Source: Trissonchulus latispiculum
Lineage: Eukaryota > Nematoda > Enoplea > Enoplida > Ironidae
Length of the DNA stretch: 64,000 bases
Direction of reading: 5' to 3'
Assembly: GCA_030248195.1 (NCBI GenBank)
Contig: JASAND010006790.1
Span: 1-64,000 of the forward strand
Both the position numbers and the translations under genes were made by a program. The notes beneath the pieces are model-generated. The model did not search any database. It worked only from the letters and a program-made list of their open reading frames with translations, and was not told the DNA's origin. Of this stretch, positions 3,201 through 61,883 are shown piece by piece; the first letter of the stretch is position 1, and each line of letters opens with the position of its first letter.

Positions 3201-6200
3201 TTCATTTTTTGTTGAATTTGTGCTATTTCAGTTCGCCGCTTTGGGTGGTTTTATTCTGATTTTTGGCTTCTTTGCCTTCAATGGCGGTTCTGTAGCCAAG
3301 ATTTCGGAATTGGGAAACGGCGCTTCTGTGGCCAGATCTGTTCTCAATACCATTCTGAGTGGCTCCTTTGCCGCCTTCACAACCCTGATTCCAGTTCGCA
3401 TTCGTCACCACAAATGGAGTCTTCTGGTTACCATTAACGGTGCTTTGACTGGAATGGTTAGTTGCGCTCGTTTTAATTATATGGGTAAATGACGAACCTC
3501 GTCTAGATTCTACTCTTTCAGACTTGCAAACTGTGACTCATAAACAGCATTTTGAAATCAGTACTCAGAATTAGAAACTCAGAAGTGAGTCAGGGGCAAA
3601 ATTAATAATTTCGAACAAAATTGCTACTGGCTCTGGGTTCAGACAGCAGAAGATAAATTTCCGAAAAATAAAGGTTTTGTATTCATGGATTATTAATTAA
3701 GATGTATGAAAGAATATTCTTACATTAGTACTTCTTGTTTTTGAAATTCGTCTTTTAATTGTGACTGAAGGAGTAAGTAATCCATGGCGTGTACTAAATG
3801 ATTTTACAGGACTGTATAGGACGAAAACCGACAGTACTGACAATATGACGTCACAACGTGACGTAGGTGTTGGTTTTGTATTCATGGATTATTAATTTCA
3901 AGTTGCGTATGACAAACTTTATTACAGAGTAACTCTTTAGAGAGATCTGTGAACCTTCACCCTAACGCGTATAAGTTAATTATATACAAATAAAGTAAAA
4001 TAGAATCAGAAATGAGACTAAGCCTAAGCCTAAGCCTAAGCCAAATTTTTTTTCAAAGACAGTGGTAGTGGTGAACCGTCACCCTAACGCGTATAAGTTA
4101 TATAAAGTATAACATATAACGGTATAACGCGTATAAGCCTCAGCCTCAGCCTCAGCCTAAGCCTAAGCCTAAGCCAAAGCCTGAGCATGAGCCTAAGCCT
4201 AAGCCAAACCCTAAGCCTAAGCCGAAGCCTTCATCTAATTTATTTTTCACAAGCCTTCATTTAATTTATTTTTCACAACTAAACAATTTATCTTCAACAA
4301 ATTACTCTAGTAGTGGTGAACCGTCACCCTAACGCGTACAAGTTAATTTATATACAAATAGACTAAAATAGTATCAGAAATGAGACTGAGCCAAGCCTAA
4401 GCCTAAGCATAAGCCAATTTTTTTTCAAAGACAGTGGTAGTGGTGAACCGTCACCCTAACGCGTATAAGTTAATTACATACAAATAGAGTAAATAGTATC
4501 AGAAATGAGACTAAGCCTAAGCCAAAGCCAAACCCTAAGCCTAAGCCGAAGCCTTCATTTAATTTATTTTTTACAACTAAACAATTTATCTTCAACAAAT
4601 TACTCAAGTAGTGGTGAACCGTCACCCCTAACGCGTACAAGTTAATTTATATACAAATAGACTAAAATAGTATCAGAAATGAGACTAAGCCAAGCCTAAG
4701 CCTAAGCATAAGCCAATTTTTTTTCAAAGACAGTGGTAGTGGTGAACCGTCACCCTAACGCGTATAAGTTAATTACATACAAATAGAGTAAATAGTATCA
4801 GAAATGAGACTAAGCCTAAGCCAAAGCCAAACCCTAAGCCTAAGCCGAAGCCTTCATTTAATTTATTTTTTACAACTAAACAATTTATCTTCAACAAATT
4901 ACTCAAGTAGTGGTGAACCGTCACCCTAACGCGTACAAGTTAATTTATATACAAATAGAGTAAAATAGTATCAGAAATGACACTAAGCCTAAGCCAAAGC
5001 CAAACCCTAAGCCTAAGCCGAAGCCTTCATTTAATTTATTTTTTACAACTAAACAATTTATCTTCAACAAATTACTCAAGTAGTGGTGAACCGTCACCCT
5101 AACGCGTACAAGTTTAATTTATATACAAATAGAGTAAAATAGTATCAGAAATGAGACTAAGCTAAGCCTAAGCCTAAGCCTAAGCCTAAGCCGATTTTTT
5201 TCAAAGACAGTGGTAGTGGTGAACCGTCACCCTAACGCGTATAAGTTAATTACATGCAAATAGAGTAAAATAGTATCAGAAATGAGACTAAGCCTAAGCC
5301 AAAGCCAAACCCTAAGCCTAAGCCGAAGCCTTCACTTAATTTATTTTTTACAACTAAACAATTTATCTTCAACAAATTAGTCAAAAGCATTTCTCTATGT
5401 CACTAACAATCCGTAACCTCAAATCTAATTGCTCAAAACAGTTTATCTCTGAATACACACAACAATCCTAACCTCAACTCTATTATTAAGGAATAATCCA
5501 ACGATACCACAAAAACTGTGTAAATAATCCATAACAACAACCCTAATCTGGACAGTAATCCTTAGATCTCAAACCACATACAACAGTAATCCACAACAAC
5601 CAGAACAATTCTTTCAGTAATCCACTGCGACCAGACAGAAAACTTGCATAATCCACGATGCCGGAACACAAATGGGCCGTAATCCATGAAACCTATACCA
5701 AAATTTTCAGTAATCCATAAAGCTGATGGCAAAATAAAGGGCTGTTGTCGATCCATTGAGAATTGTTTCATTATTAGCAATGTTTGATTGTTTCCGAAAT
5801 TTTGTAGTTAAGCGTCTGGTTTTGTTTCGTATTTGTGTATTAGGTAGCCATCTGTGCCAGCTGTGATCAAGTTCAGCCCTGGTCAGCTGCAGTGATCGGA
5901 GCAGTCGCAGGATTCGCCTACGCCTTGTGGTCAGCAATTGTGAAACTTCTCAGAATTGACGATCCGCTAGATGCGTTTGCCGGTCAGTATATAATTTCTA
6001 AAATAACGTATGGTCACCTCATAAATTTTAACTACAAAATCATTCTGCCTATTTCTCATTATTTGTTTAGAATTCTGAATTGATTCTGATTATGAATTGA
6101 ACCGCTGCAAACTTTAATTAATCAATATTGTTCAATATATATATATATATAATGGATGAACTTTAATTTTCGGAAAGCAGTTGCAGAGATTTATGTAAAT

Positions 6201-9200
6201 TTATACTTATATTTGATGTAGGTACGTTTTCAATTTGTTGTATTTAGTGCACTTTGGTGGAGGAGTTTGGGGCTTGATCGCATCGCCTTTGTTCGACATA
6301 AACCACGGAATTGTTTACTTTTGGAATAAAGGCGCCTTCCTGGTTAGTTAATAGCCGACTGCTCAAATAGTTAACTTCAAAAAATTGACTGTATTCTTAA
6401 GTATTAAGCTCAGTCTACTTATGTACAAAGCAACTTACAGATAATATAGTATTTATATCTACACTACACCGACAGTGTTATATACTTCGGCACATATATA
6501 TCGAAAGTAAAGAAACTAGTTGGATTTTGTATATATTTTGCTAGATATATTATCCTTTTTCTTCTACAGTCCAATTGTCTATTAGTTTGCATGTATTAGG
6601 TTTGTATTACATAGGGAATGGATTATTTAACTTCAAATCTTCTACCTGATTTGGTGTCATCAATGCCCTAACAGAGTTTATTTTTCAGCGTTTGGGCTGG
6701 AACGTTCTGGGTGCCTGCGCTATCATTGGATGGAGTGCAGCTTTATGCGTCCTCACTTTTGGACTATTGAAAGTATTCAAGCTCCTTAGAGTTTCCGAAG
6801 AGAATGAACTGAAAGGTTTTATGATATATATTTGTATATTATATTGTTACTGTATAGTACACACTTTGTCTCAAAGTGGCCAAAGTGGTTCATTTTTGAC
6901 ATATTCGTATTTATGTATATTCTTACCAAACAGCGCAATCGCGATTGCCACAAGTGATAAACTATAGTAAAGTGAAATGAACAGTGCAAAATGAACCAAC
7001 AAAATTATGTACTAAAGTCTGACCAAAAATTCTTGGAACCGAAATGTGAGCAGCTGTCCTGAGCTATCATTTGAAGGTAGCCTATACAATGTATATATTT
7101 TTCGAATCCTCAGGCACCCGAGATTTCGAAAATCCGAAAAATTCCGAAATTCCGGATTTCATTCACGGAAAATTTAAAATTTTTAGTTTTTCGCCAAATT
7201 TTTATCGCAATCAAAATTTGGTTCTCACAGTCGAATAGAGCTGGTCCCGCTACACATTTTTGCTCTTAGAAGCTTTTCACGAAAATGCACCCAATTTCCG
7301 GAATTCCGGGTTTTCTAAATTACCGGATTTTAAAAATTTCCTCCAATGCCCACAAGATGGGTATCATTCGAAAGCTCTTATCGGGCTGAACAACTTTTGT
7401 AATAGAACGAACTCGTGAAAATGCACTCAATTTCCGGAATTCGCGAAAACCGGATTTTCCGGATTTTAAGAATTTTCTCCAATACCCACAATATGGGTAT
7501 CATTCGAGAGCTCTTGATGAGCTGAACAAATCTTGTAATAGAACCAACTTGCAGAAATGAGCCCAGTTCTCGGAATTCACGAAAAATTTTCAAGCTAGAG
7601 TGAAATCCGAATTTGTCAATTCCGGGATTTTGGTGCATTTTCAGACATTGGTTCTATTACAAGATTTGTTCAGCTCATCAAGAGCTCTCGAATGATACCC
7701 ATATTGTGGGTATTGGAGAAAATTTTTAAAATCCGGAAAATCCGGTTTTCGCGAATTCCGGGAATTGAGTGCATTTTCACGAGTTCGTTCTATTACAAAA
7801 GTTGTTCAGCTCGATAAGAGCTTTCGAATGATACCCATCTTGAGGGTATTGGAGGAAATTTTTAAAATCCGGTAATTTAGAAAACCCGGAATTCCGGAAA
7901 TTGGGTGCATTTTCGTGAAAAGCTTCTAAGAGCAAAAATGTGTAGCGGGACCAGCTCTATTCGACTGTGAGAACCAAATTTTGATTGCGATAAAAATTTG
8001 GCGAAAAACTAAAAATTTTAAATTTTCCGTGAATGAAATCCGGAATTTCGGAATTTTTCGGATTTTCGAAATCTCGGGTTCCTGAGGATTCGAAAAATAT
8101 ATACATTGTATAGGCTACCTTCAAATGATAACTCAGGACAGCTGCTCACATTTCGGTTCCAAGAATTTTTGGTCAGACTTTAGTAATAAACTTAATAGAG
8201 ATACGTACCGACAAGAGTTTATAATACCAAGAGTAAGACACTCAGCTCTTCCCAATAGAATACGCTTGCAAGATGCTCGAAACATTAAGGCCGAAATCTC
8301 GGGGGGGGGGCTTCTCAGCTTGTAAGCATACAACGCTGACATTTTTTAAAAACGGGCGTTTTCGACAAATTAAATACTATAACTTGAGCTAGGAAAATCG
8401 TACAGCAATAATTCTTATATCAATTATATTGCGTAGAACGAGATCTTTTTAAGGAAATAAAAATTATGTAGTTAGCTTCAAGCAATCTCTTACAAAATCG
8501 GCAATAAAGCATCCTTTCCACGAAAATTAGAGGAATTTCACCATTTCTTCAACTTAATCTCCTTAAACGGGCTATTATCTGCCTTCAAAACTGTCAAATT
8601 TCTTGTATTTTTACTTGTATTTCGAATAGCCGGCGAAAAGTGACACCGGCCGGCCGGTACAGGCCGGTCCGCCGGCTCGCGAGCTGGGCCCACGAAAAAT
8701 TGGGCCGGTGAACAACACTAATTTTATAACGCTAGGAATTTTATTAAAAATGTAAAATATATACGTGGTCACAAAAGGAGGTTCGCCGCTGGTCGCCTCA
8801 AGACGTGACGTTAACACATAAAACATAAAAAGAAAAGAAGGAATGGACAAATTTACTTAAACAGTTAGCAGCTACAGTTCTAGAGTATTTTTGATTTGCT
8901 ATCTATCAAAGGGCCTGGGCTGGTGCAATTTAAACTTTGATTGAACAGTTATGGCTGTGGTGCTCATACTAAACAATTAAGTTTTTTGCTTTTTGATAGC
9001 ACCGTTTGCTTAATTTTCTAGGTTTGGACATTGTGAAACATGGGGAACCAGCATATCCTCTCAGTGCCTATGGACATGGTTGGGGTGAACCATGGGATAT
9101 TCTTAGTACCACAAGCACAGTAGCTGGTAATTTTGTACTTTTTAGCATTGTACTTGATACTGACTACTTTACGCCTTACACGTGTGTAGGTGCAATATTC

Positions 9201-36704: not shown

Positions 36705-36899
36705 CTTGACCAAAGTTGACTTTCCAAAGTTGGCCAACATGCTAAGGATTTTTGATAGTTTGCAAGTATATATATCTAAGTTCTAACCAACTATCAAACT
36801 TAGGCTACTAGAAATTCGTATGCGGGCAAAATTCTACTTGTTCTATCACATGACAATAGTGGTTTTCCTCTACGTGAACCCAGGAAAAATTGACTTGAA

Positions 36900-38310
36900 A
36901 GACTTGAAAGACTCCCAGACTTGAAAAACATGGTGACCATACCCATAGGTGTAAGGTGGGGGGTAGGGGGGGGTAGCCCCCCCCAAGCCTTTTTTCAACC
37001 CTCCCCCAAAACTTTTTGGGGGGGGACGTCCCCCCCCCCCAACTGGCCCCTCAACCCCCCCCCCCCCAAAGGAAACAAAATGATTGTCATGTTGCTAACA
37101 CATATGTCAAATTTGGATTCTGCGTCCCCAAAAATCCTCTGGCCTCTAGGCCAGGTTTTCCTCAAATTCTGGGATTTTATAAATAAAGCGTTTCCCCAGG
37201 TGTTCGGAACCATGGAGGTGGAGGGTCGCCAGATCAGAATTGGTTGGTCGGACAATAAAACTGACCTCAAATTTGAATCCCTTATAAATCATTTTTGTTG
37301 AGATCCGCCTTCAAATAAATTTTCCCACGGGCTCAACTCCCGAAAACCGGGTTCGGCGCCATAGAGGCCTAGGATTGAGAGCTACCATAAAATTTGTAAA
37401 ATTTTCACTGAAACCGCCACTCTCAAAAACCCCCGCAGGTAAATTTTCGTTAAATTTGGTCGAATATTTTTTATCAAAATCCTTTTTATCCCCTTATATG
37501 TATATAGGATTGCCAAATTTTGGGAGTTTTAGAAGTTTGCTTAATTTCTGCAGTTTAAGCATCCTATCACAAGAAAATGTGTTTTAGTTGCATTTAAAGC
37601 CAAGCCCGGCTTATTTTATCCATTTTTGACGAAGTTGAAAAATTTGACTTGAAAGACTTGAAAGACTCCCAGACTTGAAAAACATGGTGACCATACCCAT
37701 AGGTGTAAGGTGGGGGGTTGGGGGCGTAGCCCCCCCCCCCCAAGCCTTTTTCAACCCTCCCCCAAAACGTTTTGGGGGGGACGTCCCCCCCCAACTGGGG
37801 GGGGGTGGGGGGGGGGGTAGTCGCGCCGAAAGCGCGAAAAATGGCCAAAAATTGGGTATTTTTAGGGTAAATTTTCAAAAAATTTTCAAAAATGTCGAAA
37901 TTTTTGGCTTGAACTGTTTATTATTATGAGAAATACACGTTTTTAACTGTATTATGGATCTTATGACTCAATATTGACCTTATTTTGGACTTGGAAACAT
38001 GTTGGCAATCAAGTTTTCGAGTTTAAAACCACTGTCTAATGTTAAAATTACTTTATGGTTAGATGTTTTTCATCATTAGAAACGGCTGAAAATACGATTT
38101 TTGGCATAAAAAATGAAAAATTTTTTTGGGGGAGGGTTGGGGGGGTCCTGGGGGGGGGTTGGCGGGGTCGCCAGAGGGAGCCCCCCCAGAAAATGTTGGG
38201 GGGGGGGGGGAGCCTCCCCCACCCCAAATCTCCGTTACACCTACCTGAACGGGAGGTCAAATTTCACTGACCCTTTGTGGAAGCAAATTTGGGTGCCCCT
38301 TGTGAAAATA
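36900..38310. repeat. Dispersed long repeat, copy 1
   Basis: Blocks 37050-37430 and 37545-38275 recur almost unchanged and in the same orientation at 56775-57150 and 57155-57840. Within copy 1 the block near 36900-36990 is itself repeated at 37640-37715. It contains G/C homopolymer runs that vary in length between copies. Apparent frames such as 36921-37301 are shared repeats, not genes. Confidence 0.85.
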
Positions 38311-46713: not shown

Positions 46714-47550
46714 CTAAAAAAACCAATTATAAAAATGTTTTACACTTTTCGAAAAAACCAATTATAGTAATGTTTTAAATTTTTCAACATTTCTACATTT
46801 TCTAACTTTTACAAGAAATCAACCAATCACTATTTCACATCTCAATGCAAACAAAACTGTTTTTTAAGTTTTTAGTTTGGTAACATAAAACTTTACTATG
46901 GTTGTAACAAGTTAGAAAAAAGTAGGAAACTTGACCTAATGTTTAAAAACTTATAATTGGTTATTTCAAACTTTAACGATTGATTGTACAATGTTGGCTG
47001 ACTGTAAAAAGTTGATTTTAACTTTAGTTGGTCAAATTTTCCGTGCTCATACAGTTCCTGTTTTTTAAATTAACTTTTCATAGTCCAACAAGTTTTTACA
47101 ATTATTTCACGATCAACCAAACATTAAAGTTTGAAATAACCAATTATATATATATTTAAATTGTTTAAATTTTTCAACATTAGGTGAAAAGTTAGTACTT
47201 TTCCTACTTTCTTCTAACTTTTTACAATCAATTTTACAACCATAATAAAGTTTTAAGTTATCAAACTAAAAACTTAAAAACAGTTTTGTTTGCATTGAGA
47301 TGTGAAATAATAATTGGTTGATTGCTTGTAAAGGTTAGAAAATGTAGCAAATGTTGAAAAATTTGAAACATTATTATAATTGGTTATTTCGAAAAATTTA
47401 AAACATTATTACTATTGGTTATTTCGAAAAGTTTAAAACGTTTTTATAATTGGTTATTTCAAATTTTAATGTTTGGTTGATCGTAAAATGATTGTAAAAG
47501 GTTTGCTGACTATATTTAAAAAAACAGGAACTGTATGAGCATTGAAAATT
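46714..47550. repeat. Nested inverted repeats with AACCAATTATA modules
   Basis: 46714-46905 is mirrored by 47275-47460 (GAAATAACCAATTATAAAAA-type modules). A second pair, near 47030-47060 and 47515-47550 (containing CAGGAACTGTATGAGC), is also inverted. AACCAATTAT/ATAATTGGTT occurs at least six times. Looks like two overlapping foldback elements just upstream of the LTR. Confidence 0.65.
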
Positions 47551-47804
47551 TGAATTTGATAATGAAAATTGAAAAGTAGGTTTCAGAATTTCAGGAAAAC
47601 TGTTGAATAATTCAAGTTTAACCGTAGTTCTACAGTTTTCCTGAACAAAATACGGAATTTAAGAATTTGGAAAATAGGAAAGGGAAAAGTTTTGGGTTTT
47701 TTGTTTTTTAATTTTGGTGTGGGAAATTGTGTGTTCTGTTTGGGATATACATTTAAACTTTCACATATACTTATATACACCATATTAAAAGTTGTCTACT
47801 AATG

Positions 47805-48355
47805 TGTTTACGTAATAACGGTTGATGTGCCTCAGGTGGTGCGGTGAACGGCCAACTATTTTCATTCAATCGTGTTGGTCGTTCGTCGGCTGACAAATGG
47901 CCTGTCAACCGATAGTGTTCCTTTTATAAGAAAACAGAAACCCATTAAAATTCACCCCCATTCAAACTTAAATTTCACCTCTTATCACCCCTATTTATTC
48001 CTTCAGGGCATTCTGTTTTCCTATAAAAGGAAATGCTCATTCACTGTAAGTAGTCATTGTCTGAAGAATAAAAGACATTACGGACTTGTTGAATTTCCAA
48101 ACTTGGGTTAATCTTGAATACCAGACAAATCGACTACTTGGGTGAAACGAGCTAACAGCAACTTGGGCCAATCAACTTGGGTTAATCTACGTATACTTAT
48201 ATACGTAAAGAACTTGGGTAAACCCTCAGCTATAACGACTAATTTGGGCTAATCAAACTTGGGTTAATCTAAACCTCAGCTAAACTACGTAACCTTATTT
48301 AACAAACTTGGGCAAACCCCACAACTTCAGTACTTACGTACGTCTAACCGTTACA
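47805..48355 (+). repeat. 5' LTR of the Gypsy-class element (left border approximate)
   Basis: The right border is firm: it ends ...CGTTACA, then TTTT, then the primer site. TATAAAAG at 48022-48029 and AATAAA at 48067-48072 place U3, R and U5. U5 holds eight loose copies of AACTTGGGTTAATC. The left border near TGTTTACG (47805) is a guess because no 3' LTR is available for comparison. Confidence 0.6.
48022..48029 (+). promoter_or_regulatory. LTR TATA box inside a 20-bp inverted repeat
   Basis: TATAAAAG at the usual distance before the presumed R start. The surrounding TTCTGTTTTCCTATAAAAGG (48011-48030) is mirrored at 47921-47940 with one mismatch. Confidence 0.6.
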
Positions 48356-48359
48356 TTTT

Positions 48360-48377
48360 TGGAGGTTCCACCGAGAT
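48360..48377 (+). other. Primer binding site complementary to tRNA-Gln
   Basis: TGGAGGTTCCACCGAGAT complements the 3' end (including CCA) of eukaryotic tRNA-Gln over 18 nt, judged from known tRNA-Gln sequence. It starts 4 nt after the LTR end, as in many Gypsy elements. Confidence 0.75.
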
Positions 48378-48379
48378 CC

Positions 48380-51300
48380 AATCTTGCCGTGGACTCGGGA
48401 AAATTATCTCAACAACTGTCAGAAAAGAGTACGACTCAAGCGACCGGATCCACGCTAGAGTCGGAAAATTGTGACAAGAAGTTGCCAGAAGAACTCCCAG
48501 CCTCTGCGACAGAATTACAGATTTCGGGACAGTCTACCCAGACTGATTACCTCGTGGCCCGTTCCCACGAATTTACAGAGAGAATCCAGAAGCTCAGCAC
48601 TAAAATAGCTGAGTCAACTGAACGATTGCAGGAAATACGACAGTATACAGCATCAATTTCCCCGGGAAGAAACCCAGAGACCACTGCTAAACTGAAGACT
48701 GAAGATTCCACTTCCGACAGTGAAGATTCCGCGGAAACAGCCTTTTCCGGTTTTAGCCAATCTGATATTGACGAAACCGAGAGAATACTCACCCACATGA
48801 CTACGCCACCACCAGGACAAGTACCAGATTTTTCCCAACTTCAAGCGGCCCTACAGACCCTCCCTGACAGCCTGAAGCGAGCTATGTCAGGACTAAGTGG
48901 TGTAACCAGCCTTCTGGGACTAAAATATTCCGGACAGGCTCAAGAAAGTTGGAAGGAATTCATAGATTCGTTCGATATCATCGGAACCGCACATAACTGG
49001 GCTCCAGATGATAAAGCCAGGATGCTCCCAGTCTGTCTGCAGGGACAGGCAAGGGATACTTATGCTGCCCTGGATGCCGCTACTAAGGCTAACTACAGCA
49101 ATCTAATAAGGGCGTTAAAAAGCGCCCTGGAGCCAGCAGAAATGGCTCGGTTTAAGAGTGCTCAATTACATCGACGCACGCAACAACTACATGAAAGAGT
49201 CTCCGATTTCGGAGCAAATATCAAGAAATTAGTAAAGGGAGCCTACCCAGCATTTGACGCCGGCCACCAAGAGCAACTCTGTCTCGAATTCTTCATTGCG
49301 GGCCTCCTACCGCATTATGGTCGACTCGTCATGGCAAAGGAACCTAAGAATTTTGAAGATGCGCTGAAATATGCCAAACTCATCGAAGCTGGTGAATATT
49401 TAACAGCCGGCCTTACCCCCTCAGGTACTGCACCTGCTGGAGCTATGGTAGAGGCTGTGACCACAGCAAGAACAAATAACCCGGAAGACAAAGCTTGGAA
49501 AGAAGCATTCAAAGAGATTAACGATAAATTGCAGAAACTTACCATGGACCAACAGCGCCAAAATGGATACGTCCTAGGCTTAATGGAGAGGTCGCCAGCT
49601 CCTTCCCAATCGCCTCAAGAACGAAGAGAATCCAACGTTCGGTCCAACAGCGCACGAGGCTGGACAACAGACAGTCGTATTATCTGTCACTACTGTAAAA
49701 AGCCGGGTCATTTTGTTATCAACTGTAGGAAACGGAAGCGTGACCGTGAAGCCCAGGGTTCAAACAGTGGCACCAATAACTGGCGCCAAAGCCCTACAAA
49801 TCAATCAAACTGGAGGAATCGTGGAAACAGTAGACCAAATCCGCCGACTGGGGTGTCTCGTAATCAAACCAATCAGCGGTCCTACGCCGTCGGGACGAAT
49901 ATTACAGAATCGCTAGAAAATGAAGAAGCCAATACCGATATTGCCGACTTACAGGAGACAATCAAAATGCTCACAGAACAGAACCAGCAACTGCTAAATA
50001 ATCAATACTCGGATTTTGTGGGGAGCATAACTGTTCTACCTACTGTGACCAATAATCGGCAGAACGAGACATGCGAGCATAACAAGGACTCACACGGACC
50101 CGATTTAGACGCAACCCCAGACAGAACTCCAGTTTATGATAAAGGGACAGCTGAGAAGTCTCAGGTGGCCAAGTCTACAAGACGGAGATCACGCCAAGGA
50201 CGAAGAAGACATACAAAATCCTGTGACGGTGAGCAGGGAGAATCCCGGCGAAGTAATGAAAATCTGCACTCGGTCGGCTTCTTCGGCGGTCAATTTCCCA
50301 AGTTAATCCTCCTTGTTCTAGCCATCTGCCTGATAACACCAGTTACATCAGTCCGAAGCATCAATGAAATGGCAAGCGGACCGATGGTGTGTCAAACGGA
50401 GCAAGGCAGAGCTCTGTGGCGATTGCCTGGACGCCTCCAGTGCAGTTCCACCACGACCCCTACTCGCAGAGAGTTGGAGGATGTAGAGTTAACTCTCTAC
50501 AAACGGAACTACGTGAAATATAAGTCCCAAGCCTGGAAATGTACTATCGTGAAACAGACTGTTCGTACATTCACCTACTTCTTTGCGAACTACCACTTAA
50601 AAGAGGAAGAAAAGCACGATTTGAGAGTAACAGGAACCGAGTGCGAATCTATGAGGAGATTCCACCAGTGTGATGCGGGACCTCTTACATTACGTGGTGG
50701 CCTATGGCAGACAGACAACGAAGTGAATTACGAATATTCTGGGGGAGGTATTAACTGCTGCCATTGGCACAGTTACACCGCCACCAATTGCTTCATGTAC
50801 GAAGCATTTGTCTACAAGCGTCACAGTAGTGACAGTATGGAATCTACAGCCGGATGGGTAGAACACTGCGACTACAGATCTGGTGGTTGCCAACTCCGCG
50901 ACGGAAGCTACCTACTATGGGAACCAAACCAGGACGAGCGATGTGAATTCCTCGAATGGCAAACATTGTCAGGCGAAATGTGGGGAACTAACTGGTTAGC
51001 AGACAATGACCAATTAGCACTTACGTTCAAAAGCGGAAAATTTGCAAAAGATTGTGTCGGCCGCACCATTCAGCTCACTGATCAAGGTATCCCCGTGCGA
51101 CTGAAAACACCAGACTACAAAACTAAACGATCAACATCAAACTTTACGACCCCAGAACAACTGATGGCTAAACTCCAGAAAACAGAAAATGTAGGACCCC
51201 AGCTTAAACAGTGGGCTATCAACAACGGGATCGTAACGACTGATCTAATGGCTTCGTCATTACAAGCACAAGAATTTAAACTTGAACGGAACCTAAACTT

Positions 51301-54300
51301 TGCCTTCAAACAGGCAATGAACGCTGCCTGCCGCTCTATGGCAACAATAATGGAAGTCCTCAAAGCGGATATGATGGCAAATCCAACCCTAGCGATCAGA
51401 GCGATCTTAGGCCGGAACGACATTATCGCACGGGCAGGAGGAAACGTCATATCCACATGGCCATGCCAAGAAATCGAACAGGGATTTTACCACTTCGAAC
51501 CAATGAACGAGTCCTGTAGCATGGAAATCCCAATCAAATTCCTGCTGAATTCACAGGAATACTCAGCCTATCTCGATCCTATTACCAATATTGTACATAA
51601 AAACCCTTATCCAGTCGACTGCCGACTGAATAGAGAAATCCCAGTGCAGTTGCATGGGAAAATGTACACATATCAGAGTGAAACAGGCGACATAACGCCG
51701 TTATTACACATTCCAGAACTAAGGGCATTCTCCTGGAATACGACCGAACCTTGGAGCTTCCAACCTACCATCTTTAGTCAAATAGTCATGTACAATTTTT
51801 CCGAAATTACTTCGGAAATTAGCCTAAATGAAATTATCGGAGGTCTCCAATACCAACAGAAGATACTGCAGGAACTCAGTGATCGCACCACTCGAAAATC
51901 ACCTAAACAAGCTGCCCAAGGAGTGGTTACCGGAATCATGAATAAAGGGTTCTTTGGATTTCTCCATGGATTCTCAGTTAGCCCCTGGCAGTTGTGGGTA
52001 TTCCTAGTCTGTGCTTACGTCACCCTCAGCTTCCTGTTACTACACTGCTGCCCAAATAACATCCGGGATGGTCTTACCTTCAACCTACCACGTTCATGGC
52101 CTCATTTTCGGAGGTGGGCACATAAACGTAAGCGCTCTACTTCCAGGGCCCTAATGCTAAGGTTTAGAAGACAAAAGCGAAGCAGCCCAAACGGAAGTTC
52201 TAATAATAATGAAGACTTAGATGAGCAGGAAATGGTCATTCTACCACCATCCTGCCCACCAGCATCAGCCCCCAGTCTCATAGAAAGGGTACGACGCATG
52301 TCTACTCCGGCACGAGTCCCTACAATACTACATATACCTGCTTTTACTCCGGAAGAAGATACAGCGATCAATGATATTCCAAGAACGGAGCATTTGTACC
52401 CACAAAAGGACCTCAAAGTAGACCAACATACGCAAGTTTCACCAGCAATGACAACTTTCCTACCCTCGCATGCGCCAAACATAACGACGCGTACCACGTA
52501 CTGGCCAGATACGTTAAACTCACCAAATCAACGAGAAACCACTAACTGCACCGGACAAAGCTCAACGGCAATACCAATTAAGATAAATTCTATGCCAATA
52601 AAGGCCCTGGTAGACACTGGCTCAACTATTACTCTAATTGACGAAACTATCTACCGAAGACTACAACTCCACAGTTCAACAACACTGGCTCAAGAAAAGT
52701 CAAATGTATCTGCAACTAGCATGACAGGGCACGAGCTGGCTATATCCGGTAAATCTGTCATACCACTACAAGTTGGAAGTCAGATTTTGGACCACTCGAC
52801 ATACATAGTCTCGAAATCACCTCACGAATGTATCTTAGGGACTGACTTCCTCAAACGACTGGGTCCTATCACAATTGACTTACAAAACGAAACAGTAACT
52901 ATTCACAAACAAAAGAACGCTACCACAGAAAAGCATCCTACTGCCATCATTAACGAAACCATGACGATACCCCCTAGAACTCAGGTAACATTCTCTTGCA
53001 AAGTCAAAGGATCAATCTCTGAGGGCGTTCTTGAACCTAACCCTCGCTTCGAAGCTGCAACCGGTCTATATGTAGCAAGAGCACTTGTTAAAAATGGGCC
53101 TCAAATTCCAGTCAGGGTTATGAACACCAGCCATGCACCAATAAAAATCTATGCAAGGACAAACATTGGATCTATATGTGCCATTCAGCAGATCAGCAGC
53201 AAAGTGGACAACGAAGGAGAATCGGAGCCGCATCCTCTATCTGGTATTGACCTGAGTTCCGCAGAATTAACATCACCACAACAAAATAAACTGTTACAGC
53301 TACTTAATCAGTACATTGATGTTTTTGCGAAAGATGACAACGACGTTGGCTGCGCTACCGCCATCAAACATTCTATTGACACTGGTGATCATAAACCTAT
53401 TTACCAACGCCCATATAGGACACCAGTCTCGCTCCGCTCAACTGTAGCCCAGAAAATCCAAGACTGGGTCAAACATAAAATCGTCGAACCGAGCTCATCT
53501 CCGTGGGCTTCCCCAATTGTCCTAGTTTCCAAAAAAGACGGTACAATTCGTATTTGTGTGGACTTTCGAAAAATAAACGCCATAACGAAACGTGACGTCT
53601 TCCCTCTACCAAGGATCGACGACCTCCTAGACTCATTAGGAAAAGCCAACTTCTTCAGTACTCTTGACTTACAGTCAGGATACTATAACGTACAGATGAG
53701 CGATCAAGATAAAGAGAAAACGGCATTCATCTGTGAAGAAGGACTATTCCATTACAACGTCATGCCATTCGGCCTTACAAATGCACCTGCCACTTTTCAG
53801 AGATTAATGAACATTGTTCTCTCTGGATTGCAGACTAAGTTCTGCTTATGCTACCTAGACGATATTATCATATTCTCTCCTACGTTCGAACAACACTTAT
53901 CTGATATCTCGAACGTACTGCAACGGCTAAGAGATCACCGCTTAAAGCTGAAAGCCAAGAAGTGTCACTTTGCTTGCCGTACCGTCAGCTATCTTGGACA
54001 TACAATCTCCAAGAATGGACTGCAACCAGAAAACGATAAAATTGCCAAAGTTCGCGATTATCCTGCGCCAACCAACCTTACAGAATTAAGGAGCTTCCTT
54101 GGCCTTGCCTCATATTACAGAAGATTCATTAAGAACTTTGCCCAGGTAGCCTACCCACTCTACTCTCTATTAAAAAAGGAAAACCAATATCAGTGGACAG
54201 AAGACTGTGAACACAGCTTTTCAACCCTGAAAGAGTGCCTCACTACCGCACCAATCCTTGCTTTTCCAGATACAAACCGTCCGTATATCTTACAGACGGA

Positions 54301-55621
54301 TGCCAGTGGATTTGGCTTGGGCGCGGTTCTCTCCCAACTTGACGCCCTCAATAAAGAACATCCAGTGGCCTATGCCAGTCGCACCCTAACAAAGGCGGAG
54401 AAAAACTACCCTGTCATAGAACTCGAAACGTTGGCTATAGTGTTCGGGGTAAAATACTTCCGCCATCTCATATACGGGCAAAAGATCACCATTATCACGG
54501 ATCACAGCCCTCTGCGGTGGCTTATGACGGTAAAATCGCCAAGCGGACGCCTAATGAGATGGATACTGCAGCTACAAGAGTACAAGCTTGATATACAATA
54601 TAAACCCGGAAAGAAACACGGTAACGCTGATGCCATGTCACGACTACCTTCCCACTTACCAGGAGTAAATGATACAGCGAACATAGTTTTGGCAATAACT
54701 CTCAAAGACGTCACTTCCTTGCATACAATGCAACGAGAACAATCCGATATTAAGCAATTCCTTGACTACCTACAAACTGGCTCCCTGCCAGAAGACCTAA
54801 CGCAAGCAACTCGCATTGCAATTAAAGCAGCACGCTTCTTCATAGAGGACGGACTCCTGTATCATGAATATCCCCATGCCAACAAACCAGGAAAACTATT
54901 TGTCCAACTAGTTATTCCGACAATCCTCACATATGAAGTTTTTAAAGCATGCCACGAAGACATCACAGCGGGACATTTGGGTTTTGAAAAGACCTACCTA
55001 AAAATCCTGAGCCGTTATTGGTGGAATACTATAAGGAAAGACATCAAGGACTGGTGCAAAAGCTGTGAAGCCTGTATCCGCAAGAAGAATCCTCCGAAGG
55101 CAATACGTGCCCCGCTGGTGTCAATCCCTGTCGAAGGTCCGTGGGATCGCGTAGCCGTTGACATACTTGGACCACTGCCTCAGACAGAAGAAGGTTACAA
55201 ATATATAATAGTATTTACGGAATACCTTACCAAGTGGGTGGAAGCATTTCCGCTTATTGACACCAAGTCGGAAACCATAGCTAAGGTCTTCGTCGAGCAA
55301 ATAGTCTGCCGCTATTCTTGTCCAAAAGAACTGCTTTCAGACCGTGGGGCAAACTTCCTCAGTACCCTCATGGCTGAAACATGTAACCTTCTAGGAGTTA
55401 CTAAGATCAACACCACAGCTTACCACCCACAGACGGATGGCCAATGTGAACGATTCAACGGGACGCTCATGCAAATGCTTAGCAAGTATGTCTCGCATAC
55501 GCAGAAAGATTGGTCCAGCTTTATCAACTTTTGTCTCTTTGCATATCGAACCTCAGTGCACTCATCCACTTTAGACACTCCTTTCTTCCTAAACTTTGGC
55601 CGTGAAGCAAGACTACAGTAG
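48380..55621 (+). CDS. Gag - envelope-like glycoprotein - Pro - RT - RNase H - integrase polyprotein
   Basis: Residues are counted from codon 48308; the frame is open from before the primer site, and the first in-frame ATG is at 48797. Order: acidic coiled-coil-like N-terminus; Gag capsid (about 205-395, ESWKEFIDSFDIIGTA); CCHC knuckle (C460, C463, H468, C473); basic linker; hydrophobic signal/TM1 (663-682); Cys-rich ectodomain with NFT, NES, NTT and NFS glycosylation sites and a dibasic KTKR at 938-941; TM2 (1227-1249); aspartic protease DTGS (1436); RT with YLDD (1849); RNase H (first Asp 1998); integrase HHCC and D2285, D2345, E2381 (DD35E spacing). It stops within integrase after FLNFGREARLQ, losing perhaps 150 or more residues. 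Glycoproteins of LTR elements usually follow pol; here it sits between gag and protease with no stop. Glycoprotein family unassigned. Confidence 0.85.
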   Translation, partial: NLAVDSGKLSQQLSEKSTTQATGSTLESENCDKKLPEELPASATELQISGQSTQTDYLVARSHEFTERIQKLSTKIAESTERLQEIRQYTASISPGRNPETTAKLKTEDSTSDSEDSAETAFSGFSQSDIDETERILTHMTTPPPGQVPDFSQLQAALQTLPDSLKRAMSGLSGVTSLLGLKYSGQAQESWKEFIDSFDIIGTAHNWAPDDKARMLPVCLQGQARDTYAALDAATKANYSNLIRALKSALEPAEMARFKSAQLHRRTQQLHERVSDFGANIKKLVKGAYPAFDAGHQEQLCLEFFIAGLLPHYGRLVMAKEPKNFEDALKYAKLIEAGEYLTAGLTPSGTAPAGAMVEAVTTARTNNPEDKAWKEAFKEINDKLQKLTMDQQRQNGYVLGLMERSPAPSQSPQERRESNVRSNSARGWTTDSRIICHYCKKPGHFVINCRKRKRDREAQGSNSGTNNWRQSPTNQSNWRNRGNSRPNPPTGVSRNQTNQRSYAVGTNITESLENEEANTDIADLQETIKMLTEQNQQLLNNQYSDFVGSITVLPTVTNNRQNETCEHNKDSHGPDLDATPDRTPVYDKGTAEKSQVAKSTRRRSRQGRRRHTKSCDGEQGESRRSNENLHSVGFFGGQFPKLILLVLAICLITPVTSVRSINEMASGPMVCQTEQGRALWRLPGRLQCSSTTTPTRRELEDVELTLYKRNYVKYKSQAWKCTIVKQTVRTFTYFFANYHLKEEEKHDLRVTGTECESMRRFHQCDAGPLTLRGGLWQTDNEVNYEYSGGGINCCHWHSYTATNCFMYEAFVYKRHSSDSMESTAGWVEHCDYRSGGCQLRDGSYLLWEPNQDERCEFLEWQTLSGEMWGTNWLADNDQLALTFKSGKFAKDCVGRTIQLTDQGIPVRLKTPDYKTKRSTSNFTTPEQLMAKLQKTENVGPQLKQWAINNGIVTTDLMASSLQAQEFKLERNLNFAFKQAMNAACRSMATIMEVLKADMMANPTLAIRAILGRNDIIARAGGNVISTWPCQEIEQGFYHFEPMNESCSMEIPIKFLLNSQEYSAYLDPITNIVHKNPYPVDCRLNREIPVQLHGKMYTYQSETGDITPLLHIPELRAFSWNTTEPWSFQPTIFSQIVMYNFSEITSEISLNEIIGGLQYQQKILQELSDRTTRKSPKQAAQGVVTGIMNKGFFGFLHGFSVSPWQLWVFLVCAYVTLSFLLLHCCPNNIRDGLTFNLPRSWPHFRRWAHKRKRSTSRALMLRFRRQKRSSPNGSSNNNEDLDEQEMVILPPSCPPASAPSLIERVRRMSTPARVPTILHIPAFTPEEDTAINDIPRTEHLYPQKDLKVDQHTQVSPAMTTFLPSHAPNITTRTTYWPDTLNSPNQRETTNCTGQSSTAIPIKINSMPIKALVDTGSTITLIDETIYRRLQLHSSTTLAQEKSNVSATSMTGHELAISGKSVIPLQVGSQILDHSTYIVSKSPHECILGTDFLKRLGPITIDLQNETVTIHKQKNATTEKHPTAIINETMTIPPRTQVTFSCKVKGSISEGVLEPNPRFEAATGLYVARALVKNGPQIPVRVMNTSHAPIKIYARTNIGSICAIQQISSKVDNEGESEPHPLSGIDLSSAELTSPQQNKLLQLLNQYIDVFAKDDNDVGCATAIKHSIDTGDHKPIYQRPYRTPVSLRSTVAQKIQDWVKHKIVEPSSSPWASPIVLVSKKDGTIRICVDFRKINAITKRDVFPLPRIDDLLDSLGKANFFSTLDLQSGYYNVQMSDQDKEKTAFICEEGLFHYNVMPFGLTNAPATFQRLMNIVLSGLQTKFCLCYLDDIIIFSPTFEQHLSDISNVLQRLRDHRLKLKAKKCHFACRTVSYLGHTISKNGLQPENDKIAKVRDYPAPTNLTELRSFLGLASYYRRFIKNFAQVAYPLYSLLKKENQYQWTEDCEHSFSTLKECLTTAPILAFPDTNRPYILQTDASGFGLGAVLSQLDALNKEHPVAYASRTLTKAEKNYPVIELETLAIVFGVKYFRHLIYGQKITIITDHSPLRWLMTVKSPSGRLMRWILQLQEYKLDIQYKPGKKHGNADAMSRLPSHLPGVNDTANIVLAITLKDVTSLHTMQREQSDIKQFLDYLQTGSLPEDLTQATRIAIKAARFFIEDGLLYHEYPHANKPGKLFVQLVIPTILTYEVFKACHEDITAGHLGFEKTYLKILSRYWWNTIRKDIKDWCKSCEACIRKKNPPKAIRAPLVSIPVEGPWDRVAVDILGPLPQTEEGYKYIIVFTEYLTKWVEAFPLIDTKSETIAKVFVEQIVCRYSCPKELLSDRGANFLSTLMAETCNLLGVTKINTTAYHPQTDGQCERFNGTLMQMLSKYVSHTQKDWSSFINFCLFAYRTSVHSSTLDTPFFLNFGREARLQ

Positions 55622-56759: not shown

Positions 56760-57845
56760 GGGGTTAGCCCCTCAACCCCCCCCCCCCCAAAGGAAACAAA
56801 ATGATTGTCATGTTGCTAACACATATGTCAAATTTGGATTCTGCGTCCCCAAAAACCCTCTGGCCTCTAGGCCAGGTTTTCCTCAAATTCTGGGATTTTA
56901 TAAATAAAGCGTTTCCCCAGGTGTTCGGAACCATGGAGGTGGAGGGTCGCCAGATCAGAATTGGTTGGTCGGACAATAAAACTGACCTCAAATTTGAATC
57001 CCTTATAAATAATTTTTGTTGAGATCCGCCTTCAAATAAATTTTCCCACGGGCTCAACTCCCGAAAACCGGGTTCGGCGCCATAGAGGCCTAGGATTGAG
57101 AGCTACCATAAAATTTGTAAAATTTTCACTGAAACCGCCACTCTCAAAAGCCCCAAGTGTTTTAGTTGCATTTAAAGCCAAGCCCGGCTTATTTTATCCA
57201 TTTTTGACGAAGTTGAAAAATTTGACTTGAAAGACTTGAAAGACTCCCAGACTTGAAAAACATGGTGACCATACCCATAGGTGTAAGGTGGGGGGTTGGG
57301 GGGTAGCCCCCCCAAGCCTTTTTTCAACCCTCCCCCAAAACTTTTTGGGGGGGGACGTCCCCCCCCCCAACTGGGGGGGGGGGGTAGTCGCGCCGAGGGC
57401 GCGAAAAATGGCCAAAAATTGGGTATTTTTAGGGTAAATTTTCAAAAAATTTTCAAAAATGTCGAAATTTTTGGCTTGAACTGTTTATTATTATGAGAAA
57501 TACACGTTTTTAACTGTATTATGGATCTTATGACTCAATATTGACCTTATTTTGGACTTGGAAACATGTTGGCAATCAAGTTTTCGAGTTTAAAACCACT
57601 GTCTAATGTTAAAATTACTTTATGGTTAGATGTTTTTCATCATTAGAAACGGCTGAAAATACGATTTTTGGCATAAAAAATGAAAAATTTTTTTGGGGGA
57701 GGGTTGGGGGGGGGGGTCCTGGGGGGGTTGGGGGGGGGGTCGCCAGAGGGAGCCCCCCCAGAAAATGTTGGGGGGGAGCCTCCCCCACCCCAAATCTCCG
57801 TTACACCTACCTGAACGGGAGGTCAAATAATTTCACTGACCCTTG
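56760..57845. repeat. Dispersed long repeat, copy 2
   Basis: Near-identical to 37.05-38.28 kb, same orientation, about 19.7 kb away. It lacks a 110-bp segment present in copy 1 at 37430-37545. G-run lengths differ. Confidence 0.85.
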
Positions 57846-57857
57846 TGGGCACCTTGC

Positions 57858-58276: not shown

Positions 58277-60090
58277 TTTCGGCCGTTAAAGCCAGTAGGA
58301 CTAAGTTTTGTGACAAAACCCAGTCAAATTTTATTGATATTTAAGTAAAACTAGTAATTTTCTCAAAAAATTTCGAGCCTTCGGCTCGAATGTGATAGAA
58401 ATTTACTTGTATTTCGAGACTGTCCAGTTAGGTGGTTGTATACACCTATAGTTACATTCTGTAACTTAGTACGCATATGTTTCATTTATAATTAATTTTT
58501 AACAAAGCAAACAACAGCACGCATCCTAAAAATTAGCGAAATTTTGAAGGCCTGAATTTTTTGGACGATGGCCTAAAGAATTTCGGCCGTTGAGTCCATT
58601 TGGTCTAAAGGTAGGCGACGATGTCAAAAATTATGGGAGAGGTGGTTAATGGGACCAATTTGTGGGAATACGGCCTAAGGAGTCTATTTGAGGAATCTGC
58701 ATAATTTTTTGAGGGTTTAAAAATGGTTGGAAGGTAACCGTCCTTCCTTCCTCTTTGTACATCTATGATCATACTTTCTCATTCTCACCTAGCCGAATCC
58801 TACCTCTAGCTTCTCCTCTAACAAATATATATATTTTTTTTGTTTTTTTATCAACATCGTTTTTGTTCTCTCTCTTTTTTTTTTATTGGGTGTATATATG
58901 GGGAAGCGAGGGGGGGGGGGATGGGGGGGGAGTGGGGGTCGTTATTGTCGTCAGTTGGAGCTCAGTGGGGTGTGTAGGGAATGCTTTTTATGTGTGTTAT
59001 CGAGTTGCGTGGGGGGTAAAAAAAGTCGCCAGCCTTTTTGGGGTTTGGTGGGCCGCAGGGGGTTGGTTGGGGGAAAGTCAGCTGCATCGATCAACAAAAG
59101 GACTACGAACCAACAAGAGATGAAATTATATATGTGTAAAGCAACAAGTGGTATCAGTTATATGGTGAGGAATGGGAGAGAGGGGGGGAGGATGGGTGGG
59201 GAGATGAGGTGGGCAGTAGGGCCAAGTGGGTTTAAGAGGGGGTGAAAAGAAATAGTATAATATATGGTGGGGGCGTAGAGGGGGTAAAAGGGTGGGCAGT
59301 TGGGCGTCAAGTGGGTGGGGGTGGTTAGTGCATATATATATATATATATATAATATATATGTGTATATATATATAGGTAAAAAGGCGTCTGCGCGGCCCC
59401 CTGGAGACCGTGTTGGCCTGGTGCCAGCTAATTAGAGGTCCGGGAGTGGTAAAAAGGTTACCATCGTAAACAACTCGAGTAGTACTACAAGTACCACCAT
59501 ACTTTTGGTTCGAATTCGAAACTTCGAATTTTTGCACTAGGCGATAGTTACCGTGCGTTTGTTTTTTTTTCTCGGTGAATAACGCTTATTGGAAATGCAT
59601 TTTACGGCGAAGTGTTGGAACGATGTGGGCATTTTGGCACCATACTACTATTATATGTTGGTAGACAGGATCCCCCCATGCTACCTTTTTTTGGTCATTT
59701 TGGCACCTGGCCAATTTTGGCTCTGTGCCAAGGTCCCAAAGTCGGACTTTCGCTATTTTTCGCAAATTTTGGTCACACTTTTCTAGAACTGGGTAGAAGC
59801 TGGAGAGGTCTAGTATCTTTTGTTGAAAACTACCAGTAGGGGTGCATAAAGTAACGAGGGGGATTTTTTAATTTTGCTCCCTAGCTTTCAGGAGATGGGC
59901 CCAAAGTTTGCATTTTTTTGGCCTGTTTTGGCGAAAAGTTTCTAAGTCCCACTTTTACTAGAAATGGCCTAAAAGTCACTAAAAATGGCGTTTTTCGGCC
60001 TTGGGGTGGGACCCATATATAGTAAATCGGGGTCGCTGAAAACGATGAGCATACTGCTGAGGTCGGTGGATGTGACCCCTGACCCACAGC
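58277..60090. other. Low-complexity region without a gene
   Basis: G-rich stretches (58900-59320), a (TA)n tract (59332-59375) and unstructured AT-rich text. Frames here are open because of base composition. Nothing recognised. Confidence 0.5.
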
Positions 60091-60097
60091 GCCCACC

Positions 60098-61740
60098 CAC
60101 AGTGGGTCCGGTGTGGGTCAAAAATGAAAGTCTTCAAAAGTGGTCAAGTTTGGTATCAAACGAAAGCCCTTGGCGAGGCGATCAACTTTTGTCATTATGC
60201 CACCCACAAAAAGTGGCCCCACCGACCTGTGGGTGGGTGCCCCACCCACAGTGGGTCCGGTGTGGGTCAAAAATGAAAGTCTTCAAAAGTGGTCAAGTTT
60301 GGTATCAAATGAAAGCCCTTGGCGAGGCGATCAACTTTTGTCATTATGCCACCCACAAAAAGTGGCTCCACCGACCAGTGGGTGGGTGCCCCACCCACAG
60401 TGGGTCCGGTGTGGGTCAAAAATGAAAGTCTTCAAAAGTGGTCAAGTTTGGTATCAAACGAAAGCCCTTGGCGAGGCGATCAACTTTTGTCATTATGCCA
60501 CCCACAAAAAGTGGCCCCACCGACCTGTGGGTGGGTGCCCCACCCACAGTGGGTCCGGTGTGGGTCAAAAATGAAAGTCTTCAAAAGTGGTCAAGTTTGG
60601 TATCAAACGAAAGCCCTTGGCGAGGCGATCAACTTTTGTCATTATGCCACCCACAAAAAGTGGCCCCACCGACCTGTGGGTGGGTGCCCCACCCACAGTG
60701 GGTCCGGTGTGGGTCAAAAATGAAAGTCTTCAAAAGTGGTCAAGTTTGGTATCAAATGAAAGCCCTTGGCGAGGCGATCAACTTTTGTCATTATGCCACC
60801 CACAAAAAGTGGCTCCACCGACCAGTGGGTGGGTGCCCCACCCACAGTGGGTCCGGTGTGGGTCAAAAATGAAAGTCTTCAAAAGTGGTCAAGTTTGAAA
60901 GCCCTTGGCGAGGCGATCAACTTTTGTCATTATGCCACCCACAAAAAGTGGCTCCACCGACCAGTGGGTGGGTGCCCCACCCACAGTGGGTCCGGTGTGG
61001 GTCAAAAATGAAAGTCTTCAAAAGTGGTCAAGTTTGGTATCAAACGAAAGCCCTTGGCGAGGCGATCAACTTTTGTCATTATGCCACCCACAAAAAGTGG
61101 CCCCACCGACCTGTGGGTGGGTGCCCCACCCACAGTGGGTCCGGTGTGGGTCAAAAATGAAAGTCTTCAAAAGTGGTCAAGTTTGGTATCAAATGAAAGC
61201 CCTTGGCGAGGCGATCAACTTTTGTCATTATGCCACCCACAAAAAGTGGCTCCACCGACCAGTGGGTGGGTGCCCCACCCACAGTGGGTCCGGTGTGGGT
61301 CAAAAATGAAAGTCTTCAAAAGTGGTCAAGTTTGGTATCAAACGAAAGCCCTTGGCGAGGCGATCAACTTTTGTCATTATGCCACCCACAAAAAGTGGCC
61401 CCACCGACCTGTGGGTGGGTGCCCCACCCCCAGTGGGTCCGGTGGGGCTCAAAAAATGAAAGTCTTCAAAAGTGGTCAAGTTTGGTATCAAATGAAAGCC
61501 CTTGGCGAGGCGATCAACTTTTGTCATTATGCCACCCACAAAAAGTGGCCCCACCGACCTGTGGGTGGGTGCCCCACCCACAGTGGGTCCTGTGTTGGTC
61601 AAAAATGAAAGTCGTCAAAAGTGGTCAAGTTTGGTGTCAAATGAAAGCCCTTGGCGAGGCTATCAAGTTTTGTCATTATACCAGCCACAAAAAGTGGCTC
61701 CACCGACCTGTGGGTGGGTGGCCGGCGTGGGTCAAAAATT
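60098..61740. repeat. 149-bp satellite array, about 11 copies
   Basis: Monomer from CAGTGGGTCCGGTGTGGG to GTGCCCCACC, repeating every 149 bp near 60099, 60250, 60399, 60548, 60697 and 60846. One monomer has a 10-bp deletion at about 60896. Two variants differ together at three sites (AAAC/AAAT, GGCC/GGCT, ACCTG/ACCAG). The last two copies (from about 61440) are more diverged. Because 149 is not a multiple of 3, the overlapping frames across it are repeat artefacts. Confidence 0.95.
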
Positions 61741-61883
61741 AAAGTCTTCAAAAATGGTCATGTTTGATATTAAACGAAAGCCCATTTGCTCACATTTGCC
61801 CTGTCTATTGCATTGTTCAAGCTCCTTATCTGCGTTAGCGCACTGCTGGAAAGGGAACCTTTAAAATGACAGAAGGACAAGAA

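Follow-up and report, generated by a model that had tools for sequence, protein, structure and literature searches.

An envelope-like glycoprotein encoded between Gag and protease in the single open frame of a nematode Ty3/Gypsy-type retroelement

One open frame from Gag to integrase

The stretch of DNA analysed here, called the window throughout, comprises positions 1 to 64,000 of contig JASAND010006790.1 from the nematode Trissonchulus latispiculum, and it contains a long terminal repeat (LTR) retroelement with an envelope (Env) domain inside its polyprotein frame. A stop-free frame runs along the + strand from 48293 to 55621, where a stop codon closes it, and encodes, in order, Gag with a CCHC knuckle, a signal or transmembrane segment, a cysteine-rich ectodomain of ~550 residues, a second transmembrane segment, protease, reverse transcriptase (RT), RNase H, and integrase. 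A run of ~2,440 codons without a stop is not a product of chance, and the same layout recurs in other copies. The gene order and the single frame are read directly from the DNA and, together with the domain matches given below, they bear out an earlier model-made reading of this sequence (the original prediction), which had placed Gag, a glycoprotein, protease, RT, RNase H, and integrase in one uninterrupted frame.

The Gag part of the frame (48293..50203, + strand, as are all features of the element) has a capsid-like region from ~48926 and a CCHC knuckle at 49682-49732; the Pfam matches here (Retrotrans_gag, CCHC) are weak and below their cut-offs, and the CCHC motif was read directly from the sequence. 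A first hydrophobic segment, the putative Env signal peptide or anchor, follows at 50279..50335 (mean hydropathy of 2.08 over 19 residues), and a second, the putative Env transmembrane anchor, lies at 51986..52042 (mean of 1.96). Between them is the ectodomain (50336..51985), which includes a furin-type site, KTKR, at 51119..51130. When hydropathy was examined over the Gag, Env, and protease pieces, no further hydrophobic segment was found in Gag or protease, and no 2A-like NPGP site occurred in the longest frames scanned. Four sequons fall between the hydrophobic segments, at residues 313, 435, 512, and 531 of the middle piece. Their presence alone is no evidence for a glycoprotein, because Gag and protease contain sequons as well; their spacing in Env is the same or nearly the same in related copies, and the sequons of Gag and Pol vary more.

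The enzymes occupy the remainder of the frame. An aspartic protease with a VDTGS motif (52571..52864; RVP / gag-asp_proteas) is followed by RT with YLDD (53450..54007, the left edge being approximate; RVT_1, E 3.7e-33), RNase H (54269..54583; RT_RNaseH, E 2.2e-40), and the zinc-binding and core domains of integrase (54914..55429; Integrase_H2C2, E 1.6e-21; rve, E 1.9e-8). The frame ends inside integrase (55430..55621) and gives way to G-rich repeat-like sequence. A database relative, P0006, matches the window with the C-terminal part of its integrase only at 55367-55606 and runs on for ~220 residues further, and searching the window turned up neither a 3′ LTR nor a 3′ accessory region. The window copy is thus a 3′-truncated member of its family, since its frame ends just past the integrase core and neither of these features was detected.

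Upstream, the window copy retains a diverged 5′ LTR and a primer-binding site. The LTR remnant (47881..48355) has its right end at ~48355 and an only approximate left edge; the LTR of a relative matches 47881-48031 at 73%, and LTR end plus leader match 48344-48717 at 82%. The primer-binding site, TGGAGGTTCCACCGAGAT, is an exact match at 48360..48377 and resembles the 3′ end of tRNA-Gln. The opening codons of the frame consist of the LTR tail and the primer-binding site.

Copies, selection and the class of the glycoprotein

The genome (733.8 Mb in 21,732 contigs) is rich in genes for the N-terminal domain of cuticle collagens, a domain that marks nematodes: a first look gave 285 candidates, of which 150 were scored, and all 150 exceeded the cut-off. 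Searched with Env, the genome returned at least 72 matches on many contigs, a lower bound in that 68 of 1,014 candidates were scored. Fourteen match rows lie in open frames of 2,442-2,643 codons and are themselves free of stops (a split match on C16260 was set aside). The 30 best-scoring Env loci of the 72 matches were cut out and read: Gag lies immediately 5′ of Env in all 30, and protease 3′ of Env in 29 (L021 lacks it). Gag, Env, and protease matches share a single frame in 19 of the 30, among them L014 with stops in its Env match, and frame shifts or truncations break that frame in the other 11. Of 29 further family loci examined for hydropathy, 19 showed both hydrophobic segments. The arrangement in the window is accordingly not a one-off, an outcome in favour of the original prediction, and the retroviral and errantiviral layout, with env in its own open reading frame (ORF) 3′ of pol, is not the one seen; Env sits between Gag and protease in the same frame.

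Selection on Env was measured by the Nei-Gojobori ratio of nonsynonymous to synonymous substitution rates (dN/dS, or omega) in 15 selected, non-independent pairs drawn from 15 of the 30 loci, leaving out seven pairs in which Env dS was saturated. In the eight pairs with countable dS, Env omega was 0.03-0.05 and below that of protease in every case; it was also below that of Gag in all six pairs that allowed a count for Gag. In the seven that allowed one for RT, Env omega was either lower than the RT value or no more than 0.01 away from it. Env is under strong purifying selection. In one pair (L003/L005), Gag dS was 2.2 versus 0.30 for Env, a gap that suggests recombination.

The class of the glycoprotein was addressed mainly through profiles. 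The middle domain of the window frame matches Monjiviricetes_fusion (PF24664) at 6.4e-8, above the cut-off, BDV_G at 2.5e-6, 0.4 bits under its cut-off, and Glycoprotein_B at 7e-4, well under it. All 15 Env sequences that were aligned match PF24664 at E 0.01 or better, at least one of them (L051) under the curated cut-off. When the aligned-Env profile was compared with the PDB, the 15 distinct matches were all to glycoprotein B, GP110, or BALF4 (best E 3.6e-8); a single-sequence search with the window Env reaches glycoprotein B only at E 0.01. Fourteen cysteines are invariant in 15/15 aligned sequences, and a furin-type site ([RK]x[KR]R) is kept in the same place in 12/15. The original prediction had called this region an envelope-like glycoprotein and had proposed a comparison with known fusion proteins. 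Conservation across copies and the profile similarity to class III fusogens uphold that call; as to the comparison, the profiles point to class III, and the predicted structure, a low-confidence model, gives that class weak support. Because of the low confidence of the model, the assignment rests on the profiles, by which Env is a predicted class III fusion glycoprotein of the glycoprotein B or mononegavirus type.

Ten copies with long frames and enough contig sequence around them were picked, and their two flanks were compared. LTR pairs bound all ten, with aligned lengths of 616-918 bp (for C17756 the alignment stops where the piece does) and identities of 94.0-100%; two pairs are identical throughout. 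In each copy, TGGAGGTTCCACCGAGAT stands at the end of the 5′ LTR, with one T-to-C change in two of them. The family therefore holds young, LTR-bounded copies. The order protease-RT-RNase H-integrase in the window and in P0006, together with the LTR pair and primer-binding site in all ten relatives, marks this as a Ty3/Gypsy-type LTR retroelement, an assignment made from these characters. A G-rich interspersed repeat flanks the window copy in the same direction at 36885-38280 and 56767-57848, 94-99% identical over most of its length. These two copies were considered as the LTRs of the element and rejected: they are G-rich, show no TG...CA ends, and lie 19.6 kb from each other. An AT-rich long inverted repeat lies just 5′ of the element, at 46717-47553.

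Beyond pol, ORFs are present in eight of the ten flanked copies (C8840 and C18640 lack them). An acceptor-like sequence stands ahead of accessory exon B in seven of these eight, with none in the stretch examined of C17118, and this accessory gene is probably spliced. None of the four accessory ORFs searched has a Pfam match at E 1.

More distant relatives in the same genome were sought through RT, for which 112 of 6,118 candidates were scored. About half of the scored matches are only 51-57% identical, and the frames around many of them span 2,400-3,183 codons. Ten such elements were sampled by reading the stretch 0.9-3.6 kb 5′ of RT, with protease read in C14947, C13648, and C15434 only. Eight of the ten have a predicted class III Env 5′ of RT, one has an unrelated putative Env, and one has no Env. 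Among the eight, the stretch is open in every case; six Env sequences are 38-45% identical to that of the window, and the remaining two are ~22% identical and still match Monjiviricetes_fusion (5e-12 and 3.5e-14). Five (L053, L055, L056, L059, and L060) have a Gag CCHC motif ahead of Env, and the stretch has no recognisable Gag in L051, L052, and L054.

The unrelated putative Env belongs to C13648 (L057, 182-2011, - strand), in which the CCHC motif is followed by a membrane protein of another kind, bearing a signal, RSKR plus a glycine-rich hydrophobic stretch, and a transmembrane segment. Neither Pfam (under E 0.1) nor the sequences in the PDB gave a match for this protein, and it is putatively class I-like by its look in one copy. 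After pol, the same element has an ORF (L063, 1387-2436, - strand) that encodes a NADAR domain (3.8e-16) and then a GDSL-lipase-like match (1.2e-5, below cut-off), and the frame of C15434 past integrase has a weak NADAR match (0.0027, below cut-off). When the literature was searched for a link between NADAR and retrotransposons, nothing related by title appeared among the matches listed. C15434 is the element with no Env in the stretch read. In the RT tree it pairs, with support of 100/100, with C14947, which does carry Env. The linker found ahead of Env in C14947 passes in C15434, after ~80 residues, into the second half of a protease without DTG. We read this as a derived deletion rather than an ancestral empty site. 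Movement of Env types between lineages cannot be read from the RT tree, built from elements of this genome plus P0006, because its deep branches lack support (6/13 inner branches are well supported).

Five relatives came from a protein database search, with Env parts 29-41% identical to the window Env by blastp. P0006 (3,203 amino acids) carries Gag, Env, protease, RT, RNase H, and integrase in one frame; P0005 (1,844 amino acids) carries Gag-Env-protease, P0004 (994 amino acids) Gag and then the first half of Env, and P0007 Env-protease. P0008 is irregular, with protease, two Env halves separated by ~280 residues, and then protease-like sequence. PF24664 is matched by P0008, and P0004-P0007 have no match to it at 0.1. 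Protease-like sequence lies on both sides of Env in P0008, at residues 660-766 and at the C-terminus, and P0006 likewise has two protease-like stretches. Scans of viral contig and genome contig collections found no Env relatives. A search for the SL1 RNA family gave no match, a result that carries no information.

Elsewhere in the window, positions 59988-61783 hold a tandem array of ~149-bp units, mostly >90% identical to one another, and 7005-8189 is a long inverted repeat of 1.19 kb, with a 95% match between the sequence and its reverse complement. Tandem units at 3949-5402 contain short runs of GCCTAA, the nematode telomere motif.

How Env could be made

The reading we favour, with fair confidence, is that this Ty3/Gypsy-type element makes a single Gag-Env-protease-RT-RNase H-integrase polyprotein with a class III Env, which is threaded through the membrane and then cleaved. 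The chain would be made on the endoplasmic reticulum, where the Env signal peptide would start translocation and anchor the C-terminus of Gag, and the second transmembrane segment would halt translocation, leaving Gag and Pol cytosolic and Env luminal. Signal peptidase would then release the N-terminus of Env, furin would nick the ectodomain, and the viral protease would cut on the cytosolic side. By such a route, Gag, Env, and Pol would arrive together at one membrane, and Gag would need no membrane-binding domain of its own, the Env signal doing the anchoring. In the available excerpts of PMC10309623, the Gag of the Caenorhabditis elegans element Cer1 is described as having no matrix domain.

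Several observations weigh against such a polyprotein. A fixed 1:1:1 ratio of Gag, Env, and Pol would be unusual for a budding particle. The first 168 codons of the window frame contain no ATG that could start Gag, the first in-frame one being at 48797 (residue 169), and in ten 5′ flank pieces the longest frame that runs to the end of the piece (97-179 codons) is likewise free of methionine. Only one hydrophobic segment was found in 8/29 of the further loci, and none in two (L018 and L024), several of these having shortened frames. Moreover, all 12 aligned copies of the window family share an acceptor-like AG within Env, around residue 524, which may simply follow from conserved residues, and good donor matches occur inside Env in L051 and L052, two members of one deeper family, by a single-sequence scan.

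These last observations bear on the strongest alternative, that Env has an mRNA of its own, arising by splicing or from an internal start, and that being in one frame serves only to keep the genomic RNA free of stops and so out of reach of decay. Retroviruses do make env from a spliced mRNA, the acceptor-like sequence before accessory exon B makes it probable that RNAs of the element are spliced, and the donor-like sites in L051 and L052 could be used for Env; escape from decay through a stop-free gag-pol junction has, moreover, been proposed for Cer1 in the part of PMC10309623 consulted. However, a scan of the 12 aligned copies with a simple home-written consensus, which weak sites may escape, found no shared donor near Env (among GTs kept in at least 11 of 12 copies, none exceeds 0.6 bits in mean donor score) and no conserved, well-scoring acceptor near the Env start. 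Furthermore, a spliced Env would still read into Pol unless spliced again, because no stop follows it. We regard this alternative as unlikely, and as one to be taken seriously.

It is rather improbable that Env no longer serves entry and acts instead as a membrane anchor for Gag, or as an internal fusogen in endosomes or in cell-to-cell spread within the gonad. An element fixed in the genome can spread through the germ line alone, and a place directly after Gag would fit an anchor, but the 14 invariant cysteines, the furin-type site kept in most copies, and a whole-Env omega about as low as that of RT are more than a mere anchor needs. Finally, the idea that a viral gene was inserted just once, or that the assembly is at fault, which the missing 3′ end of the window copy might have suggested, is refuted by the many Env matches and long open frames on separate contigs and by the relatives on other database contigs, and can practically be dismissed.

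The favoured polyprotein could extend well beyond this family. We advance tentatively, as a possible generalization, that a twice-threaded Gag-Env-Pol chain is the sole route to Env throughout a clade of nematode retroviruses, in which two or more unrelated types of fusogen (class III and the putative class I-like protein of C13648) have occupied the internal env slot and a spliced regulator has taken the usual place of env.

Relation to known systems

In the sources consulted, each available in part, the retroviral and env-bearing LTR layouts described have env following pol, and no retroelement of Gag-Env-Pol order was found in the open-licence PubMed Central literature, a search that leaves subscription papers and repeat libraries outside it. 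What sets this env-bearing LTR element apart is the position of env, new as far as that search goes, and probably also the way in which Env is made. A fusogen inside the polyprotein frame is strongly selected and recurs in divergent families, and its own family includes copies with identical LTRs. If the polyprotein is truly made and cut, it would represent another way for a retroelement to coordinate its shell, envelope, and enzymes; env searches limited to the 3′ ends of elements would miss such genes, which changes where to look.

In flaviviruses, the C-prM region places a capsid and then a signal-anchored glycoprotein in one membrane-threaded polyprotein. The likeness is one of topology only, as flaviviruses are positive-strand RNA viruses. 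Lokiretroviruses have the order gag-pol-env. As described in the accessible part of PMC9040795, their Env is similar to the fusion glycoproteins of Mononegavirales, and they are vertebrate retroviruses with a dual RNase H; they are like the present element in having a mononegavirus-type Env and unlike it in host, in RNase H, and in gene order.

Tas, Roo, and Cer7 (BEL/Pao elements with env) and Anakin (a Pao element with a chuvirus glycoprotein) are likewise LTR elements that acquired a viral glycoprotein, and one nematode Env has been called glycoprotein B- or herpesvirus-like, for Tas in PMC9094657 and for Cer in PMC7642597, as far as the excerpts of these papers go. These elements differ from ours in having a BEL/Pao pol and in carrying Env after the polyprotein, the latter being stated for Roo, Tas, and Cer7, whose envelope-like protein lies 3′ of the polyprotein in the excerpt of PMC7642597.

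A further comparison is with Cer1, a Ty3/Gypsy element of C. elegans. Of the Cer1 layout, a single gag-pol frame plus a spliced 3′ gene, the single frame is seen here; most flanked copies also have 3′ ORFs, the splicing of which is suggested only by acceptor-like sequence. The accessory gene resembles CERV of Cer1 in position and likely splicing, as compared by description; CERV is needed for the export of Cer1 genomic RNA (PMC10309623, in part), and by analogy the accessory gene may serve RNA export. No Env is described for Cer1 in the consulted part of that paper, whereas the present element encodes one between Gag and protease.
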